Shown here: in pieces, positions 55,803 to 63,634 of the stretch
Layout: the number at the start of each line of letters is the position of its first letter
Position numbering within the stretch: the stretch's first letter is position 1
From: Candidatus Thiodiazotropha sp. 'RUGA'
GTDB lineage: Bacteria > Pseudomonadota > Gammaproteobacteria > Chromatiales > Chromatiaceae
NCBI GenBank assembly: GCA_016842065.1
Contig: JAEPDS010000015.1
Span: forward strand, 1-64,000
DNA length: 64,000 nt
Direction: 5' to 3'
The notes under the pieces: generated by a model
Database searches by the model: none
Seen by the model: only the letters and a program-made list of their open reading frames with translations
What the model was told of the DNA's origin: nothing
Translations under genes and position numbers: made by a program

Positions 55803-57803
55803 TTAGAACACCAGGTTCATCACCAACATCATGACCGTCAGAAAGAGTACGGTCATGACGCCGCCGGCTCGCATGAAATCCGCGACCCGATAACCTGCCG
55901 GTCCCATGATCAGGGCATTTACCTGATGGGTGGGAATGAGAAATGAGTTGGAGGTGGCAATCGCAACGGTAAGTGCAAAAACTGCCGGATTGGCGCCTGC
56001 TCCGATGGCGATGTTAACCGCCAGGGGAACCAGCAGTACGGTTGCTCCCACATTGGACATGACCAGGGTGAAGAATGTCGCCAGAATGGCAACAGCGAGC
56101 TGTATCACCCAGATCGGCATATCCCCGACCACAAACAGCACCTGCTCAGCGATCCATTTGGCGGTTCCTGTGGTTTCCACCGCCAGACCCAGCGGAATCA
56201 GCGAAGCGAGCAGGAAAACGGTTTTCCAGCTGACCGCTTCATAGGCCTCCTCGATATTCAGTACGCCGGAGAGCACCATGCCCATGGCGCCGGTCAGCAG
56301 CGCGACGGAGAGACGGATGTCGGTGAACAGTACCATCGACAGGGCAATACCGAAAAACAACATCGCCCATCCGATCTTGTGTGGACGCAACTCCTCATGG
56401 GGATATTCAGTCGTTACCACGACAAAGTTCTTATCTTTTTCGATTCTTGGCAGTACATCCCATGGGGTATGCACCACCAGGGTGTCACCTGCCATGAAAG
56501 GCATGTTGCGGATATCCTCGCCTTCCCGCATGGTTTCGCCATTACGGTGCAGACCGATCATCGCCAAGCCGTAGGTTTTACGCATCCAGACATCCCGGGC
56601 GCTCTTACCGATCAGCGAGGAGCTGGGAGGAATAACCACTTCGGCGATACCGGCCTTGTTGGCGGAGAGATCGCCGGAAAAAGTACGCAGGGTGTCGCGC
56701 TTCTTCAGGTTGAAGGTAGTGACAAAGTTGTTCAGCGATTCCGGATCGGCAACCACACCCAGTACCATGCCCGCCTGGATTGCCACATCACGGGCCAGGG
56801 CGCCCGGGCCGATACGATTGGCTTCACCGGAGATCTTGGTGGCGATGATCCGCACACGGTAGCGGGTCTCCACTTCATCGAGCTCTTTGCCAATCAGGCT
56901 GCTGTCATCGGTGACCACCATCTCGGAGAGGTGGTAGGAGAGTCCATAGACATCCTGAAAGTACTGCATTGGATCCGTACCGCTGGTACTGCTCTCACTC
57001 TTGGTTTTAGGCAGCACGAAACGACCGGCAATGACGAAATAGAGGATGCCGGTGAGGATCAGGGCGACGCCGATCGGGGTCACGGAGAAGAGACCCCAGG
57101 TCTCCATCTGTTGAGATTCCGGTAGCGCCTTGTTGGAAGTCAGGATCAGATCGTTCAACAGAATCAGTGGGCTGGAGCCAACCATGGTCATGGTGCCACC
57201 CAGAATGGCGGTAAAACCCATCGGCATCAGCAGGCGTGACATGGGCAGTCCGGAACGGGCAGAGATTCGCGAGACAACCGGCAGAAACAGGGCGGCTGCA
57301 CCGACGTTCTGCATGAACGAGGAGATAAATCCTACGGTAGCCGAGATGATCGGAATGATGCGGCTCTCGGTTGTGCCGCCGATCTTCAGGATGAAGGCGG
57401 CGACGCTGCCCATGATGCCGGTCTTGTCCAGTCCGGCGCCAATGATCATGACAGCGATGATCGAGATTACCGCATTCGAGGAGAAACCGTCGAACAGGTG
57501 CTGATTGTTCACCAGTCCCTGTTCAAGCCCCATGAAGGGTGCCAGCAGGCTGGTCAGGCCGAGCACTACCATGATGCTGGCAGCCGCCACATCCACGGCG
57601 ACAACTTCAAACGCAAACAGGTAGATGGTGAGCAGCAGAATCACGCTGACCCAGGCGATTTCGATGGTCGGTACCAGGTTGGCCAGCACCAGGGCGACAG
57701 CCAGGAAGATGCCTCCGGCAATCATCTGCTTGATCGACAGGCGATTCCTTTCCGGGGTCAGTTGCAGGGTAGTCGGCAACGCGTTCACTTGATAATACTC
57801 CAT
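55803..57803 (-). CDS. SLC13-family anion permease with two RCK-C domains
   Basis: 666 residues. Ten or more membrane helices are split by a central soluble part with two TrkA-C (RCK-C) domains (about 290-370 and 385-460; SLIGKELDEVETRYRVRIIA and SLIGKSARDVWMRKTYGLAMIG). The helices around SSFMQNVGAAALFLPV and FFTLVMSNVGATVLLVP are typical of the SLC13/DASS family, in which SNVGA-type loops bind sodium and the anion. Such YfbS/SdcS-type proteins carry sulfate, di-carboxylates or other anions; the substrate cannot be set from sequence. It is divergent from the LysR gene. Confidence 0.85.
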   Translation of the reverse strand: MEYYQVNALPTTLQLTPERNRLSIKQMIAGGIFLAVALVLANLVPTIEIAWVSVILLLTIYLFAFEVVAVDVAAASIMVVLGLTSLLAPFMGLEQGLVNNQHLFDGFSSNAVISIIAVMIIGAGLDKTGIMGSVAAFILKIGGTTESRIIPIISATVGFISSFMQNVGAAALFLPVVSRISARSGLPMSRLLMPMGFTAILGGTMTMVGSSPLILLNDLILTSNKALPESQQMETWGLFSVTPIGVALILTGILYFVIAGRFVLPKTKSESSTSGTDPMQYFQDVYGLSYHLSEMVVTDDSSLIGKELDEVETRYRVRIIATKISGEANRIGPGALARDVAIQAGMVLGVVADPESLNNFVTTFNLKKRDTLRTFSGDLSANKAGIAEVVIPPSSSLIGKSARDVWMRKTYGLAMIGLHRNGETMREGEDIRNMPFMAGDTLVVHTPWDVLPRIEKDKNFVVVTTEYPHEELRPHKIGWAMLFFGIALSMVLFTDIRLSVALLTGAMGMVLSGVLNIEEAYEAVSWKTVFLLASLIPLGLAVETTGTAKWIAEQVLFVVGDMPIWVIQLAVAILATFFTLVMSNVGATVLLVPLAVNIAIGAGANPAVFALTVAIATSNSFLIPTHQVNALIMGPAGYRVADFMRAGGVMTVLFLTVMMLVMNLVF

Positions 57804-58017: not shown

Positions 58018-58914
58018 ATGGAATATAGAAGCCTGCCGGATATGAACAGCCTGGCGACCTTGAAAGAGGTGGTTGAGCGGGGTGGTGTATCACCCGCCGC
58101 TCAAGTGCTGCATGTTGGGCAACCTGCGGTGACCAAACGGCTGCGCAGTTTGGATACCTGTTACGGGGTCGATCTGATGCATCGGGAGGGGAGACGCCTG
58201 GAGCTCACCCCGGCGGGTGAAAAAGTCTATGAGTATGCCTGTCTGGTACTCGATCATCAGCTCAGCCTGCTGGACGATATCGACTCCCTCTCCAGCGGGC
58301 AGAACCGGCTGCGCCTCGAGGTGAACTTTGCCATCGGTGAGCATATGCTGCCCGATCTTCTGTTCAGGTTCGCCGAACTCTATCCGCAGTACAACATCGA
58401 GAGCCGCATGGGTTATTCGCGACACATACAGCGACGTCTGGCAACCGGGTTGTCCGATCTGGCGCTGTTGGAACAGGCCCCGGATCATCCCGATATTCTG
58501 GTGCAGAAGTGGCTTGATGATGAACTGGTGCTGGTGTGCGGCCCCGACCATCCCCTCTGGGGCTGTGGATTGCTGCCGGTGACCGACCTGGAAAAACTGC
58601 ACTATGTGCTGCGGGAAGCCCGCTCTTCAATGCGTCTGACCCTGGACAAGGCGCTGAAGGATATTGGTGTCGGCAGTCTGCCGGTGACCATGGAGGTGGG
58701 TTCTACCGATACCATCGTGGAGATGCTGCAGCACGGTCGGCATGTCAGTTTCCTGCCACGCTTCACCGTTGATGACGGATTGCAGAACGGCTCGCTCTAC
58801 CACATCAAGATCCAGGGTCTCAGGATCAAACGAATACTCTGGATTGCGCGTACCCGATCCAATCTGAACAACGATGTGGCCGAAGCCTTCATCTCACTGT
58901 TGCGCGGCACTTGA
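58018..58914 (+). CDS. LysR-family transcriptional regulator
   Basis: 298 residues. The N-terminal winged helix (about 8-67) has the LysR pattern (LATLKEVVERGGVSPAAQVLHVGQPAVTKRLRSLD, LELTPAGEKV). The C-terminal effector-binding domain covers about 95-295. It is divergent from the SLC13 permease gene (about 215 bp between) and lies 506 bp before the AOR operon, so either may be its target. The effector is unknown. Confidence 0.9.
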   Translation: MEYRSLPDMNSLATLKEVVERGGVSPAAQVLHVGQPAVTKRLRSLDTCYGVDLMHREGRRLELTPAGEKVYEYACLVLDHQLSLLDDIDSLSSGQNRLRLEVNFAIGEHMLPDLLFRFAELYPQYNIESRMGYSRHIQRRLATGLSDLALLEQAPDHPDILVQKWLDDELVLVCGPDHPLWGCGLLPVTDLEKLHYVLREARSSMRLTLDKALKDIGVGSLPVTMEVGSTDTIVEMLQHGRHVSFLPRFTVDDGLQNGSLYHIKIQGLRIKRILWIARTRSNLNNDVAEAFISLLRGT

Positions 58915-59420: not shown

Positions 59421-59900
59421 ATGCAGAGATCCCTGCTTATTGATCCGGATAAGTGCACAGGATGTGTCCAGTGTGAAATGGCCTGTTCCTATGAAAATGA
59501 GGGAATCTTCAATCCCTCGAAATCGAGGATACGGGTCTTTACCTTTCATCATGAAGGTCGTTTTGTACCTTACACCTGTACACAGTGTGCTGAAGCCTGG
59601 TGTATGCAGGCCTGCCCGGTCGATGCTATCTCACTGGATGTGAATAGCGGTGCCAAAGTGGTCAGTGACTCGCTGTGTGTTGGCTGCAAGGTCTGCACCA
59701 TTGCCTGTCCGTTCGGTACGGTCAACTACAGCACCTCTTCCGGCAAGGTAACCAAATGCGATCTGTGCGGAGGCGATCCGGCTTGTGCCAAGGCCTGCCC
59801 GACAGGGGCCATCACCTATGTGGATTCGGATCAGACCGGATTTGACAAAATGCGCCAATGGGCAGGTAAAACTGACGCTGGCTCGACAGCTACAGCGTAA
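59421..59900 (+). CDS. AOR-associated polyferredoxin subunit (AorA-like)
   Basis: 159 residues with four [4Fe-4S]-type Cys sets: CTGCVQCEMACSY, CTQCAEAWCMQACP, CVGCKVCTIACP and CDLCGGDPACAKACP. The layout is that of ferredoxin subunits that accompany AOR and DMSO-reductase-type enzymes. It directly precedes the AOR gene (16 bp) and would carry electrons between the AOR and its FAD subunit. The N-terminus is preceded by GAAGGAGAA, a good ribosome site. Confidence 0.85.
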   Translation: MQRSLLIDPDKCTGCVQCEMACSYENEGIFNPSKSRIRVFTFHHEGRFVPYTCTQCAEAWCMQACPVDAISLDVNSGAKVVSDSLCVGCKVCTIACPFGTVNYSTSSGKVTKCDLCGGDPACAKACPTGAITYVDSDQTGFDKMRQWAGKTDAGSTATA

Positions 59901-59916
59901 TCGGAGGGTACTCAAT

Positions 59917-61770
59917 ATGTCTTGGTCTGGAAAATTACTTCGGGTAAACCTCACAAACGGCACCTGCACTTCGGAAGCGTTGAACATGGCATGGGCGCAG
60001 GAGTATCTGGGTCAGCGCGGCCTGGCGAGCAAATATCTTGTTGAAGAGATCGATCCACAGGTCGATCCACTGAGTCCTGATAACAAGATGATCATGACCA
60101 CCGGTCCATTGACAGGCACCATGGCGGCGACCGGAGGTCGCTACTCAGTGGTCACCAAAGGTCCTTTGACCAACTGCATCGCCTGTTCCAACTCCGGTGG
60201 ATTCATTGGTGCTGAGATGCACAACGCTGGCTGGGATATGATCATTTTCGAAGGCCGCTCAGCCAATCCTGTCTATCTCTATCTGATCAACGATAGAGCG
60301 GAACTGCGTTCAGCGGATGAGATCTGGGGCAAAAGTGTCTGGGAGACTGACGAGTGGCTGCATGCGACGCATCAGGATCCGATGCTGCGAATCGCAGCGG
60401 TAGGTCGTTCTGCTGAGGAGGGCTGCCTCTACGCGGCAATCGTCAATGATCTGCATCGTGCCGCCGGACGTTCCGGTGTCGGTACAGTGATGGCATCGAA
60501 AAACCTCAAAGCGGTTGCCATACGCGGTACCCAGGGTGTTGGCAATATCAAAGACCCGGCGAAGTTCATGCAGGCGGTCAATGCAGGCAAGCAGGTGCTG
60601 GCAGACAATGCGGTCACCGGACAGGGTTTGCCTACCTACGGCACCCAGGTACTGATGAATGTAATCAATGAGATTGGCGCCCTGCCTACCCGCAACATGA
60701 AAGAGGTACAGTTCGAAGGGGCGCAGAACGTTTCCGGTGAGGCAATGCATGAAAATCGGCCCACCGACGGTAAACCGAATCTGACAACCAACGCAGGTTG
60801 TTTCGGCTGCACCATCGCCTGCGGGCGTATTTCAACGGTCGACAAAGGGCATTTCTCGGTTGAGAACAAGCCTCAGTATTGGGGCAATTCCGGTGGTCTC
60901 GAGTATGAAGCCGCCTGGGCACTGGGCCCGGATACCGGCGTCGATGATCTGGATGCGCTGACCTATGTGAACTTCATCTGCAACGAGGATGGTTTCGATC
61001 CCATCTCGTTCGGCTCGACCGTCGCTGCGGCTATGGAGCTGTATAAAATCGGCGCCATCAGTAGCGCGGAGACCGGTGGACATGAGCTTAAGTTCGGTTC
61101 TGCTGAGAGTCTGGTATGGGCCGTGGAGACGCTGGTCAGCGGTGAAGGGTTTGGTAAGGATCTCGGTCTCGGATCGAAGCGGCTTTGTGAAAAGTATGGT
61201 CATCCCGAACTCTCCATGACCGTCAAAGGTCAGGAGTTCCCGGCTTACGATCCACGGGGTATCCAGGGTATGGGATTGGCTTACGCCACATCCAACCGCG
61301 GGGCCTGTCATCTGAGAGGCTATACCGTTGCTTCCGAGGTACTGGGTATTCCTGAGAAAACCGATCCCCTGGCGACCGAAGGCAAGGCCGGTCTGGTTAA
61401 GGCGTTTCAGGATGCCACGGCGGCGGTGGACTCCAGTGGCCTCTGTCTGTTTACCACCTTTGCCTGGTCCCTGGAGGATATCGCACCCCAGGTGGATGGC
61501 GCCTGTGAGGGTGAGTGGACCGCCGAGCGGATGGCAGAACTGGGTGAGCGGGTCTGGAACATGGAGCGGGAGTTCAATCTGAGGGCGGGATTGACCGCTG
61601 CAGACGACACCCTGCCGAAACGTCTGCTCAAGGAAGCCGCCAATGTGGGGCCTGCCCAGGGTCGGGTCAACGACCTGGATCAGATGCTGCCCGAGTACTA
61701 TGAGCTGCGCGGCTGGAACGCAGATGGTGTACCCACAGACGAGACTCGAAAACGTCTCGGTCTGGGTTAA
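59917..61770 (+). CDS. Aldehyde:ferredoxin oxidoreductase family, catalytic subunit
   Basis: 617 residues from ATG 59917, which has CGGAGGG about 9 bases upstream; a longer frame runs back into the ferredoxin gene. The N-terminal domain (MSWSGKLLRVNLTNGTC..) and the pterin-binding GRSGVGTVMASKNLKAVAIRG are typical. The [4Fe-4S] motif CFGCTIAC (about 291-298) has its fourth Cys in SSGLCLF. AOR enzymes hold a tungsten or molybdenum bis-pterin and interconvert aldehydes and carboxylic acids. The gene set resembles the AorABC-type enzymes rather than the single-subunit archaeal form. The substrate is unknown. Confidence 0.88.
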   Translation: MSWSGKLLRVNLTNGTCTSEALNMAWAQEYLGQRGLASKYLVEEIDPQVDPLSPDNKMIMTTGPLTGTMAATGGRYSVVTKGPLTNCIACSNSGGFIGAEMHNAGWDMIIFEGRSANPVYLYLINDRAELRSADEIWGKSVWETDEWLHATHQDPMLRIAAVGRSAEEGCLYAAIVNDLHRAAGRSGVGTVMASKNLKAVAIRGTQGVGNIKDPAKFMQAVNAGKQVLADNAVTGQGLPTYGTQVLMNVINEIGALPTRNMKEVQFEGAQNVSGEAMHENRPTDGKPNLTTNAGCFGCTIACGRISTVDKGHFSVENKPQYWGNSGGLEYEAAWALGPDTGVDDLDALTYVNFICNEDGFDPISFGSTVAAAMELYKIGAISSAETGGHELKFGSAESLVWAVETLVSGEGFGKDLGLGSKRLCEKYGHPELSMTVKGQEFPAYDPRGIQGMGLAYATSNRGACHLRGYTVASEVLGIPEKTDPLATEGKAGLVKAFQDATAAVDSSGLCLFTTFAWSLEDIAPQVDGACEGEWTAERMAELGERVWNMEREFNLRAGLTAADDTLPKRLLKEAANVGPAQGRVNDLDQMLPEYYELRGWNADGVPTDETRKRLGLG

Positions 61771-61795
61771 ACAATCACTCAAGAGAGCTCATGGT

Positions 61796-61818
61796 CGTGC
61801 CCCCTCCAAGGGGGCACG
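61796..61818 (+). terminator. Intercistronic GC-rich hairpin in the AOR operon
   Basis: Perfect 9-bp stem CGTGCCCCC/GGGGGCACG with loop TCCAA, followed by GTTTTA. It lies between the catalytic-subunit stop and the FAD-subunit start. It may be a partial terminator or a stabilising 3' end for the two upstream genes. Confidence 0.65.
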
Positions 61819-61836
61819 GTTTTAGGAGGTTAGTGA

Positions 61837-63081
61837 ATGCATTATGTCGTCATTGGCGCAGGTCCGGCAGGCGTTACCGCCTGTGATACCTTGCGCGAAC
61901 AAGATCCCCAATGCCGTATTACGCTGATTGGTGGCGAACCGGAGCCACCCTATTCGCGAATGGCGATCCCCTATGTGATGGTTGAGAAGATCGAAGAGCA
62001 TGGTACCTATCTGAGGCAGAACGACAGCCACTATGCCGAACAGCAGATCGAGATGGTGGATGGACCGGTGAAGCGGGTCGATCCACAGAGCCGACGGGTC
62101 GTGTTGGAGAGCGGTTCCGAGCTGGAGTATGACCGTTTGCTGATTGCCACCGGAGCAACCCCATTGAAGCCACCGATACCGGGTATCGATCTGCCCGGGG
62201 TGCACAACTGCTGGACCATGGCGGATACCCGGGCAATCGTGGAGCGGGCCAAGCCCGGCAGTTCTGTGGTGCTGATTGGCGCCGGTTTCATCGGTTGCAT
62301 CATTTTGGAAGCCCTGGTGATGCGACAGGTCAAACTGACAGTGGTGGAAAAGGCACCGCGGATGGTGGCCAGAATGATGGACCAAGTGGCGAGTGAACTG
62401 CTGCAGGGCTGGTGTGAAAGCAAAGGGGTGGATGTGCATACCAATGCCGGGGTAACCAGCATCTCTCAGCAGGGTGATGGCTTACAGCTCTCGGTGGATA
62501 ACGGCGAGAATCTGACTGCCGATCTGGTGATCACGGCGATGGGGGTACGGGCCAATACCGAGTTTCTCGAAGGTTCCGGCATCGAGATCAATGATGGTAT
62601 CGTGGTCAATTCCCACTTCCAGAGCAACTTCCCGGATATCTATGCGGCCGGTGACGTGGCCCAGGGGTTGGACTTCTCAACTGGGCAGAACCAGGTGCAG
62701 GCGATTCAACCCACTTCGGTTGAGCATGGCCGGATGGCGGCGATCAACATGGTCAGTGATGCTGCCGTCGAGCATCGCGGCAGTCTGAACATGAATGTGC
62801 TCGACACCCTGGGGCTGATCTCATCCTCCTTCGGACAGTGGATGGGGGTGGATAATGGTGAACAGGCTGTGTTGCTCGATCGGGAGAACTACCGCTATCT
62901 GCGGCTTGAGTTCGACGGAGATTATCTGGTCGGTGCCAGCAGCCTGGGGCACACCCAGCATATCGGTGTGCTACGCGGGCTGATCCGTAGCCGGGTTCCA
63001 CTGGGGGAGTGGAAAGCACGCTTGATGAAGGATCCAACCCGGTTGATGGAGGCCTATCTTGGTTGTGTGGTGTCAGCGTGA
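61837..63081 (+). CDS. AOR-associated FAD/NAD(P)-dependent oxidoreductase (AorC-like)
   Basis: 414 residues. The FAD motif is VIGAGPAGVTACDTL at the N-terminus, a second Rossmann motif is VLIGAGFIGCIILEAL (about 144), and the late FAD motif is DIYAAGDVAQG. The family is the pyridine nucleotide-disulfide oxidoreductase class I without a redox Cys pair, like rubredoxin or ferredoxin reductases. It would exchange electrons between NAD(P) and the ferredoxin subunit. AGGAGG about 9 bases before the start marks the site. It overlaps the MoaD-like gene by 4 bp. Confidence 0.82.
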   Translation: MHYVVIGAGPAGVTACDTLREQDPQCRITLIGGEPEPPYSRMAIPYVMVEKIEEHGTYLRQNDSHYAEQQIEMVDGPVKRVDPQSRRVVLESGSELEYDRLLIATGATPLKPPIPGIDLPGVHNCWTMADTRAIVERAKPGSSVVLIGAGFIGCIILEALVMRQVKLTVVEKAPRMVARMMDQVASELLQGWCESKGVDVHTNAGVTSISQQGDGLQLSVDNGENLTADLVITAMGVRANTEFLEGSGIEINDGIVVNSHFQSNFPDIYAAGDVAQGLDFSTGQNQVQAIQPTSVEHGRMAAINMVSDAAVEHRGSLNMNVLDTLGLISSSFGQWMGVDNGEQAVLLDRENYRYLRLEFDGDYLVGASSLGHTQHIGVLRGLIRSRVPLGEWKARLMKDPTRLMEAYLGCVVSA

Positions 63082-63332
63082 TTCAGGTGGAGTTTAAGCT
63101 GTTTGCAAGCTTGATGAGCTATCTGCCGGCGGGCGCCAGCGAGCATGCCGTGCTGGTTGAGATGCCTGAAGGATCCACGGTCTTCGATTTGATGGACAAG
63201 TATCAGGTACCCAGGGAGCAGGCCCATCTGGTGGTATGCAACGGTCTTTTCATACCGCCTTCCCAAAGAGATACCCATAGCCTCAAGGATGGGGACAGCA
63301 TTGCCCTTTGGCCCCCGGTTGCGGGGGGCTGA
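63078..63332 (+). CDS. MoaD/ThiS-family small sulfur-carrier protein
   Basis: 84 residues from GTG 63078, which overlaps the previous stop (GTGA). The beta-grasp fold is indicated by VEFKLFASLMSYLP, MPEGSTVFDLMDKY and LKDGDSIALWPPVAGG. The C-terminal Gly-Gly would be thiocarboxylated to give sulfur to molybdopterin. A dedicated MoaD-like protein is a known feature of AOR operons and suggests cofactor supply for this enzyme. Confidence 0.85.
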   Translation: MIQVEFKLFASLMSYLPAGASEHAVLVEMPEGSTVFDLMDKYQVPREQAHLVVCNGLFIPPSQRDTHSLKDGDSIALWPPVAGG

Positions 63333-63364
63333 GCAGGGCGGTGGAGCATCAGGAAACCCGCTTG

Positions 63365-63634
63365 ATGGCGATCAGCCATCGTGACTTTCTGCGCAGTCTT
63401 CAGCCCATGAAGCGTGACTATCCAATAAGGGTGGAGGAACAGGGAACGAGGTTTGTGATCACCAGGGACGGTTTGCACTTGGAGATATCGCTTGGCCAGG
63501 AGCAAGTGGTCAGAATGGGCTCTCTGACGATGCCCCGGACCCAGGTCGATTTTACCTTTCATAGCGCCTCGCCACAGCAGGTGGCCGATTTTTTCATCAG
63601 ATTTGAGCTAAGCTTCAGACGGGGTGGCGGCTGA
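63365..63634 (+). CDS. Unknown small protein, last gene of the AOR operon
   Basis: 89 residues from ATG 63365; a longer frame from 63308 overlaps the MoaD-like gene. It has a basic N-terminus (MAISHRDFLRSLQPMKRDYP), strands with RFVITRDGLHLEISL and RMGSLTMPRTQVDFTF, and a helix FFIRFELSFRRGGG at the end. It shows no signal peptide, Cys or membrane helix. I do not recognise the family. Its tight placement after the MoaD-like gene suggests a role in AOR maturation or assembly, but this is only context. Confidence 0.6.
   Translation: MAISHRDFLRSLQPMKRDYPIRVEEQGTRFVITRDGLHLEISLGQEQVVRMGSLTMPRTQVDFTFHSASPQQVADFFIRFELSFRRGGG

Follow-up and report, generated by a model that had tools for sequence, protein, structure and literature searches.

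AorE, a small protein with a conserved glycine tail, as a probable partner of the MoaD-type carrier AorD in the aorABCDE operon of Candidatus Thiodiazotropha

Here, we analysed a stretch of 64,000 nucleotides from the gammaproteobacterium Candidatus Thiodiazotropha sp. 'RUGA' (contig JAEPDS010000015.1, positions 1 to 64,000; called the window in the following), which carries a complete aorABCDE operon for an aldehyde oxidoreductase (AOR), a gene set already known from Aromatoleum aromaticum. In our view it is likely that the two small proteins AorD and AorE jointly produce or complete the tungsten cofactor of the catalytic subunit AorB. New here are the findings on AorE: it has no Pfam family and, judged by its models, does not look MoaD-like in fold, unlike the printed description 'resembling MoaD'; it ends in a strongly conserved [R/K]GGG tail; it resembles the Thermus thermophilus protein 1v8c, being probably related, according to profile comparisons and structure models, to the DUF1952 domain that is fused to MoaD in Thermus; and its gene is linked to moaA, moeB and tup-like genes.

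The operon and its enzyme

The genes of the operon and the codons of the AorE tail are located as follows:

59421..59900, + strand: aorA, polyferredoxin-like subunit of 159 aa with four 4Fe-4S sites (8c0z_C match, Fer4 families)
59917..61770, + strand: aorB, tungstopterin catalytic subunit of 617 aa (8c0z_A match, AFOR_N/AFOR_C)
61837..63081, + strand: aorC, FAD subunit for NAD(H), 414 aa (8c0z_E match, Pyr_redox_2)
63078..63332, + strand: aorD, MoaD/ThiS-fold carrier of 84 aa ending in Ala-Gly-Gly (ThiS, 42.4 bits)
63365..63634, + strand: aorE, 89 aa, alpha-4beta-alpha domain (model), C-terminal RRGGG
63620..63631, + strand: codons of the AorE RGGG tail (from the sequence)

A first-pass annotation of the window had described five genes in this order and at these positions, and all five open reading frames (ORFs) were found on the + strand; aorD starts with a GTG codon and its start overlaps the aorC stop. 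Its assignment of an NAD-linked, AorABC-type AOR was borne out by homology, since the best Protein Data Bank (PDB) matches of the three enzyme subunits are all chains of 8c0z, the A. aromaticum enzyme. AorA, in which 16 cysteines in four groups can be read from the sequence and several Fer4 families are found by Pfam, matches 8c0z_C best (E 1.5e-76, residues 1-156, covering most of the C-terminal stretch, in which the filament helix would lie); AorC matches 8c0z_E (E 1.1e-120) and Pyr_redox_2 (Pfam, E 3e-61). AorB, the sole AFOR_C match in its own genome, matches 8c0z_A (E 9.9e-297) as well as the Pfam families AFOR_N (E 7e-73) and AFOR_C (E 2e-139). The catalytic subunit also has the expected pterin and Fe-S residues, over which it aligns with the Pyrococcus furiosus AOR (1aor): C295/C298/C302, C510, E331 and H465 fall into the same stretches, and we take the four cysteines to be the Fe-S cysteines. 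E331 and H465 equal Glu313 and His448 of 1aor, which are given as cofactor residues in the consulted part of a recent classification (PMC13328260).

The A. aromaticum enzyme is described as Aor(AB)nC, in which AorAB protomers form a filament with one AorC as cap, and it uses NAD (PMC10413684, consulted in part, as were all papers cited here). By homology to it, AorA, AorB and AorC would form a tungsten-dependent, NAD-linked AOR for the interconversion of aldehydes and acids, presumably built likewise as AorAB protomers with one AorC cap. The prediction that AorABC of the window contains tungsten and reduces NAD with aldehydes is consistent with a TupA-like protein encoded on another contig of the same genome (E 2.9e-73, below the curated cut-off).

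The fifth protein had been called unrecognised in the first-pass annotation, which does not hold: aorE is a published gene name, and aorD and aorE have been put forward as putative maturation factors (PMC6365974, PMC9295118). Both A. aromaticum proteins were said to resemble MoaD and were absent from the purified enzyme (PMC6365974). In co-expression work from 2022, recombinant aorABC gave 4.5 U/mg by itself, 16 U/mg together with aorDE, and 85 U/mg when tungstate was supplied as well (PMC9295118, Table 1); by our arithmetic on the same table, activity per tungsten rose approximately tenfold (4.5/1.06 versus 16/0.39). Beyond 'resembling MoaD', we found no fold, motif or mechanism for AorE in the accessible parts of the open-licence literature. 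Might AorE then simply be a minor structural or regulatory subunit of the enzyme? Its position in the operon would fit, yet its absence from the purified enzyme speaks against this, as does a phmmer search in which AorE found no PDB chain, so that AorE is none of the 8c0z chains visible to phmmer; we regard this explanation as very improbable.

AorE and AOR across genomes

A search for AorE homologues had been proposed along with the operon itself, and it showed that the 89-residue gene is indeed kept beside AOR in other genomes. In a protein search of 93 genomes, AorE was present in 26 (27 matches), with AorD directly before it in 26/27; the exception (L028) is a match in a short locus without any aor gene. 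Within the genus, 20 of the 22 genomes searched, our own included, carry AorE, and the closest named loci are those of the Stewartia floridana symbiont (99%) and Ca. Thiodiazotropha endoloripes (94%). Among 80 named loci (L029-L108), which were found through AorE by a peptide pattern containing RGG, AorD occurs in 76, AorB in 67 and AorB or AorC in 71; in the genomes of the remaining 9, an AorB match was found elsewhere in 8 (six above 900 bits, one at 795 and one partial at 384).

The association was also seen in a class-wide sample of 369 genomes, in which AorE was found in 40, AorB above 900 bits in 48 and both in 36 (Fisher p 5e-35, uncorrected for kinship); at most 14 AorE candidates were scored per genome, so the AorE count may miss some, and the AorB count leaves out AOR homologues scoring less than 900 bits. 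Seven of the 12 AorB genomes without AorE have contigs that end too early (L177, L178, L179, L183, L184, L185, L187), three loci are intact without AorE nearby (L176, L181, L186), and two are ambiguous (L180, L182). With AorB of A. aromaticum as query, 168 of 395 genomes of the Aromatoleum family gave a match. We inspected 60 of these loci (L237-L296), a non-random choice among the matches listed, with the 20 best first and then mostly those on long contigs. AorD is present in 59 of them and AorE in 58; 54 of these AorE genes follow AorD on the same strand at a distance of no more than 250 bases. Of the two loci without AorE, one has 1150 bases left to the contig end (L255), and in the other it is absent nearby (L238). 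At locus L237 of genome G537, AorB is 100% identical to 8c0z_A and the accompanying AorE is a member of our family ending in QRGGG; the AorE of the published co-expression is thus in all likelihood of this family.

The idea of an AOR-specific maturation factor therefore stands in part. AorE is linked to AOR in nearly all loci, but there are intact AOR loci without it (L176, L181, L186, L238), which indicates that it is not strictly required. A hitchhiker without any role for AOR would explain those few loci as well as the few genomes having AorE without AorB; however, AorB co-occurs in 36/40 AorE genomes and in 8/9 genomes in which the AorE locus itself lacks both AorB and AorC, and we give this explanation hardly any weight.

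Some individual loci deserve mention. L238 (G746:C2, 4127-5067) has an AorB with 97% identity to that of A. aromaticum and aorABCD, with no aorE nearby and a TupB-like permease gene after aorD. Three genomes of family f86 (G151, G274, G377) have AorE without AorB, two of them with stop codons and the third ending in RGGS, as would be expected if the gene decayed once the AOR was lost. In a metagenome-assembled genome without any AorB match (L108), an AorE with RGGG tail lies near a dapA-like gene (named by eye), while L190 (G410:C11) has a tandem AorE pair after aorD, the second ending in KGGG. Same-frame fusions of AorD and AorE were not seen in the AorE-bearing loci examined. A plasmid collection held AorB matches in 59 records (best 51.4% identity) and nothing credible for the Azospirillum AorE or a fragment of 1v8c; window AorE was not used as query there.

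AorD and other cofactor genes

AorD is a MoaD-type protein. Its ThiS domain scores 42.4 bits against a Pfam cut-off of 22.5, its residues A82, G83 and G84 are invariant in a 36-row alignment (A3), and the AGG end is found in 59/59 matches of the Aromatoleum-family slices; in other genomes, 3/42 AorD proteins extend beyond the GG. The genome of strain 'RUGA' has a single MoaE (contig C1) with a MoaD just before it and, by eye, a MoeA-like frame before this MoaD. It encodes three ThiS-family proteins, namely the MoaE-adjacent MoaD and two others, of which AorD is one. The earlier view of AorD as an extra carrier is supported by this separate MoaD beside the genome's only MoaE, and AorD would probably be an additional MoaD-type sulfur carrier dedicated to the tungstopterin of this enzyme. 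With a single MoaE and an extra carrier, AorD must share MoaE, unless AorE or another protein replaces the latter. Two class-sample loci (L177 and L179) have a tandem AorD pair after aorC, and the contig ends before any aorE.

Genes of the tungsten and molybdenum pathway were found near AorE among the 80 pattern-found loci: moaA in 21 (immediately downstream of aorE and in the same direction in 19 of them), moeB in 18, tup-like genes in 8 and any of these in 31. These counts used ORFs of at least 80 aa, the families being tested on one representative of each of five genes, and they are not independent, as many of the loci are related. The MoaA and MoeB representatives pass the NCBIfam curated cut-offs. 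The TupA-like and TupB-like representatives had the named family as best or second match, with scores below cut-off (233.2 against 400 and 186.5 against 320 bits, respectively); for the TupC-like representative, the best matches point to a generic ABC ATPase. In the Aromatoleum family, a TupB-like permease lies within the fetched slice in 38/60 loci. Beside the operon in the window, no moaA, moeB or tup-like gene was seen in the ORF list by eye.

The glycine tail of AorE

Like AorD, AorE ends in glycines (RRGGG), a point missing from the first-pass annotation. Among the Aromatoleum-family loci, which were chosen by AorB, an exact [R/K]GGG C-terminus is present in 58/58 AorE proteins (38 R, 20 K; 56 distinct ends). 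Loci found by whole-protein or profile search gave 56 distinct ends, 45 RGGG, 8 KGGG and one each of RGGS, TGGG and SGGG, the gene of the last carrying an internal stop. RGGG in 80/80 pattern-found loci was left out as evidence because the search pattern contained RGG. In the AorE alignments, the tail and a few residues before it form the most constant columns.

What could such a tail be good for? One answer is that AorE is a second carrier, a glycine-tailed sulfur carrier outside the ubiquitin fold whose C-terminal glycine would be adenylated by MoeB and converted to a thiocarboxylate. In this case, the dithiolene sulfurs of the bis-pterin tungsten cofactor, or else a sulfido ligand, would come from AorD and AorE. 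The exactness of the motif (58/58, and 53/56 distinct ends in the genome-search loci) fits this, as do the low confidence of the tail in both AorE models and a locus with moeB straight behind aorE (L062). Conversely, glycine tails can serve other uses, and the proposal is a prediction from sequence and models. No E1-activated carrier is known to lack the beta-grasp fold. We consider a second carrier rather unlikely.

Predicted fold of AorE and its probable kinship to DUF1952

Window AorE has no Pfam family over cut-off, and among 61 AorE members compared with Pfam at E <= 0.1, none matched ThiS or DUF1952 (PF09189) and no family was matched by more than one member. DUF2016/PRTRC_A was considered and rejected: its E-values were 0.013 and 0.075, but only 1/61 members matched DUF2016, so we regard the match as chance. 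The notion of AorE as a second MoaD was likewise dropped, given the missing ThiS matches, an hhalign probability of 0.2 against AorD and the differing models.

AlphaFold2 predicts an alpha-4beta-alpha domain both for window AorE (predicted local distance difference test, pLDDT, 86.9) and for a homologue from Azospirillum (pLDDT 85.1), and in each case confidence is lowest towards the C-terminus; the two models share most alignment rows and are not fully independent. In Foldseek searches of the PDB, the 'MoaD related protein' 1v8c of T. thermophilus ranks first for both divergent AorE models (probability 0.90-1.00, template modelling score by query 0.40-0.61; its chains rank 1+2 and 1+3, the aligned domain being unstated). 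No other MoaD, ThiS or ubiquitin entries were among the best 50 of 861 and the best 50 of 361 matches; these best 50 include the C-terminal domain of SOS2 kinase and AMPK entries, which we take to be KA1-like. The 1v8c chain consists of a MoaD part ending in PPVAGG, followed by DUF1952 (PF09189, E 1e-43), and it ends in RGGG; its C-terminal part is presumably filed by SCOP as a TBP-like fold.

An AorE profile (hmmsearch) matches the final 45 residues of 1v8c at a non-significant E-value, with the RGGG ends on top of each other, and a joined AorD+AorE profile covers residues 70-168 at E 0.0039, helped by its MoaD part. Comparison of the AorE profile with the C-terminal part of 1v8c by hhalign gave probabilities of 92 and 96, which were reached by 0/150 shuffles keeping RGGG (best probability 66) and 0/150 full shuffles. 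When the tails were cut from both partners, the true pair scored 69, compared with at most 7 in 200 shuffles. In single-sequence comparison, the Azospirillum AorE was above shuffles (0/500 reach its score). The only PF09189 match in the genome of 'RUGA' is below cut-off, on contig C3, and is not AorE; no paper on DUF1952, TTHA0341 or PF09189 came up in a literature search.

In 1v8c, the Gly-Gly of the MoaD part is internal, so that the AorE-like domain provides the sole free glycine end as long as the chain stays uncleaved, which would favour a second carrier. However, a JAMM protease might cleave this chain, as happens to the Deinococcus MoaD-MoaE fusion (PMC8832034). The more far-reaching version, in which AorE defines a new class of sulfur carriers (or E1 substrates) with a TBP/KA1-like fold in place of the beta-grasp fold, its RGGG charged by MoeB, working in tandem with AorD and fused to MoaD in Thermus, we judge to be unlikely.

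Possible function of AorE

From the genomic context and the published co-expression we infer that AorE acts in the cofactor maturation pathway. AorE, a small alpha-beta domain with a flexible [R/K]GGG C-terminus, would be the partner of AorD: AorD may supply sulfur for the tungstopterin while AorE acts beside it, its glycine tail entering the active site of a partner, so that AorB would receive a functional cofactor. As a guess, MoeB, MoaE, MoeA or apo-AorB might take up or activate the tail, in the way known for the tail of MoaD. The earlier proposal of a maturation role thus agrees with context and co-expression, which did not separate AorD from AorE.

A different way to read the same data is that AorE is an insertion chaperone, which would bind apo-AorB, perhaps along with the cofactor, and pass on tungsten bis-molybdopterin in the manner of FdhD/NarJ-type proteins, the tail serving only for docking. 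AorE pairs with AorB across loci, is absent from the purified enzyme (PMC6365974), and the approximately tenfold higher activity per tungsten with aorDE would fit a metal that is mostly bound in non-functional form when aorDE is missing. On the other hand, AorE is linked no less closely to AorD (76 of 80 loci) than to AorB (67 of 80), and the related domain in Thermus is fused to MoaD, not to an AOR. We regard a chaperone as a serious contender whose chances are somewhat short of even.

Several points weigh against joint cofactor maturation by AorD and AorE or against the proposed kinship. Without extra tungsten, addition of aorDE lowered the tungsten per enzyme from 1.06 to 0.39; the co-expression table, as consulted, does not separate D from E and has no row for aorABC plus tungstate (PMC9295118), and AorABC alone is still active, where the host may supply its own factors. 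The tup-like genes remain below the NCBIfam curated cut-offs. AOR loci without AorE nearby exist (the three intact class-sample loci and L238, besides the ambiguous L180 and L182), one of the 9 genomes with AorE apart from AorB or AorC has no AorB match, and 4/40 AorE genomes lack an AorB match over the limit; of these four, two have AorE genes with stops, one a marginal match (E 9e-4), and one genome is 78% complete. Regarding the kinship to DUF1952, which rests on profiles and models, none of the 61 AorE members reaches the Pfam model, the Foldseek E-values for 1v8c are 0.02 to 0.23, the hmmsearch match has E 1.0, which is not significant alone and is shared at similar E-values by five other chains, and window AorE itself is not clearly above shuffles in single-sequence comparison (2/500 reach its score).

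Stem-loop and flanking genes

Two further features of the window may bear on the expression of the operon:

61793..61821, + strand: stem-loop between aorB and aorC, 13-bp stem and 3-nt loop running into a TTTT stretch (folding)
58018..58914, + strand: LysR-type regulator gene upstream of the operon (HTH_1 and LysR_substrate, Pfam)

The aorB-aorC gap folds strongly (z <= -2, 40 dinucleotide shuffles) in 40/47 scored loci of L029-L108 and 31/51 of L237-L296; only gaps of 30-200 bases were scored, and 19 and 9 aorB-aorC gaps fell outside this range. The other gaps reach this threshold in 8/91 cases (A-B 0/9, C-D 4/23, D-E 4/59). Stem sequences differ among lineages, though folding recurs in distant ones, and several loci of the own genus (L032, L034, L035, L037-L040) have a gap of about 20 bases and no stem-loop. 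As AorAB is needed in larger amounts than AorC, reducing aorC expression or protecting the aorAB mRNA would make sense as a putative role of the hairpin. The LysR-type protein is a possible regulator of the operon; its homologue occurs in 11/80 AorE loci, all of the Thiodiazotropha group. Further out lie a large permease-like gene upstream (55803-57803, - strand) and a gene for a GDSL-like secreted protein downstream (from 63788 onward, + strand), both named by eye, with homologues in 10/80 and 11/80 AorE loci, again all of the Thiodiazotropha group.

Relation to known systems

The closest known system is aorABCDE of A. aromaticum EbN1 (AORAa; 8c0z), which shares gene order, the three enzyme subunits, AorD and AorE. 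It differs in organism and in its divergent AorE (E 2.6e-11 against our AorE profile), and its published descriptions, as far as consulted, do not mention an aorB-aorC stem-loop. In T. thermophilus HB8, 1v8c likewise has a MoaD part (PPVAGG) followed by an AorE-like domain ending in RGGG, in one fused chain in contrast to the two genes here. AOR-linked MoaD genes, often accompanied by MoeB and a pyridine disulfide oxidoreductase, were proposed for the tungsten cofactor by Iyer et al. 2006 (PMC1779556), and WorX was named in a 2026 classification as a ThiS-like neighbour of some AORs (PMC13328260). Both resemble AorD as MoaD/ThiS-like genes beside an AOR proposed for the pterin or tungsten cofactor, but the consulted parts of these two papers name only that gene and no second glycine-tailed small protein. 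Similarly, the ubiquitin-like (Ubl) sulfur carriers of Thermococcus kodakarensis are MoaD-type and serve the tungsten cofactor, TK1065 being encoded beside an AOR, whereas no AorE partner is described in the part consulted (PMC11323500).

How cells build the tungsten rather than the molybdenum cofactor is still open (PMC13197769). Recombinant AOR, which is of interest to biotechnology, benefits from aorDE, and the conserved glycine tail together with a probable relative of solved structure makes the function of AorE experimentally approachable.

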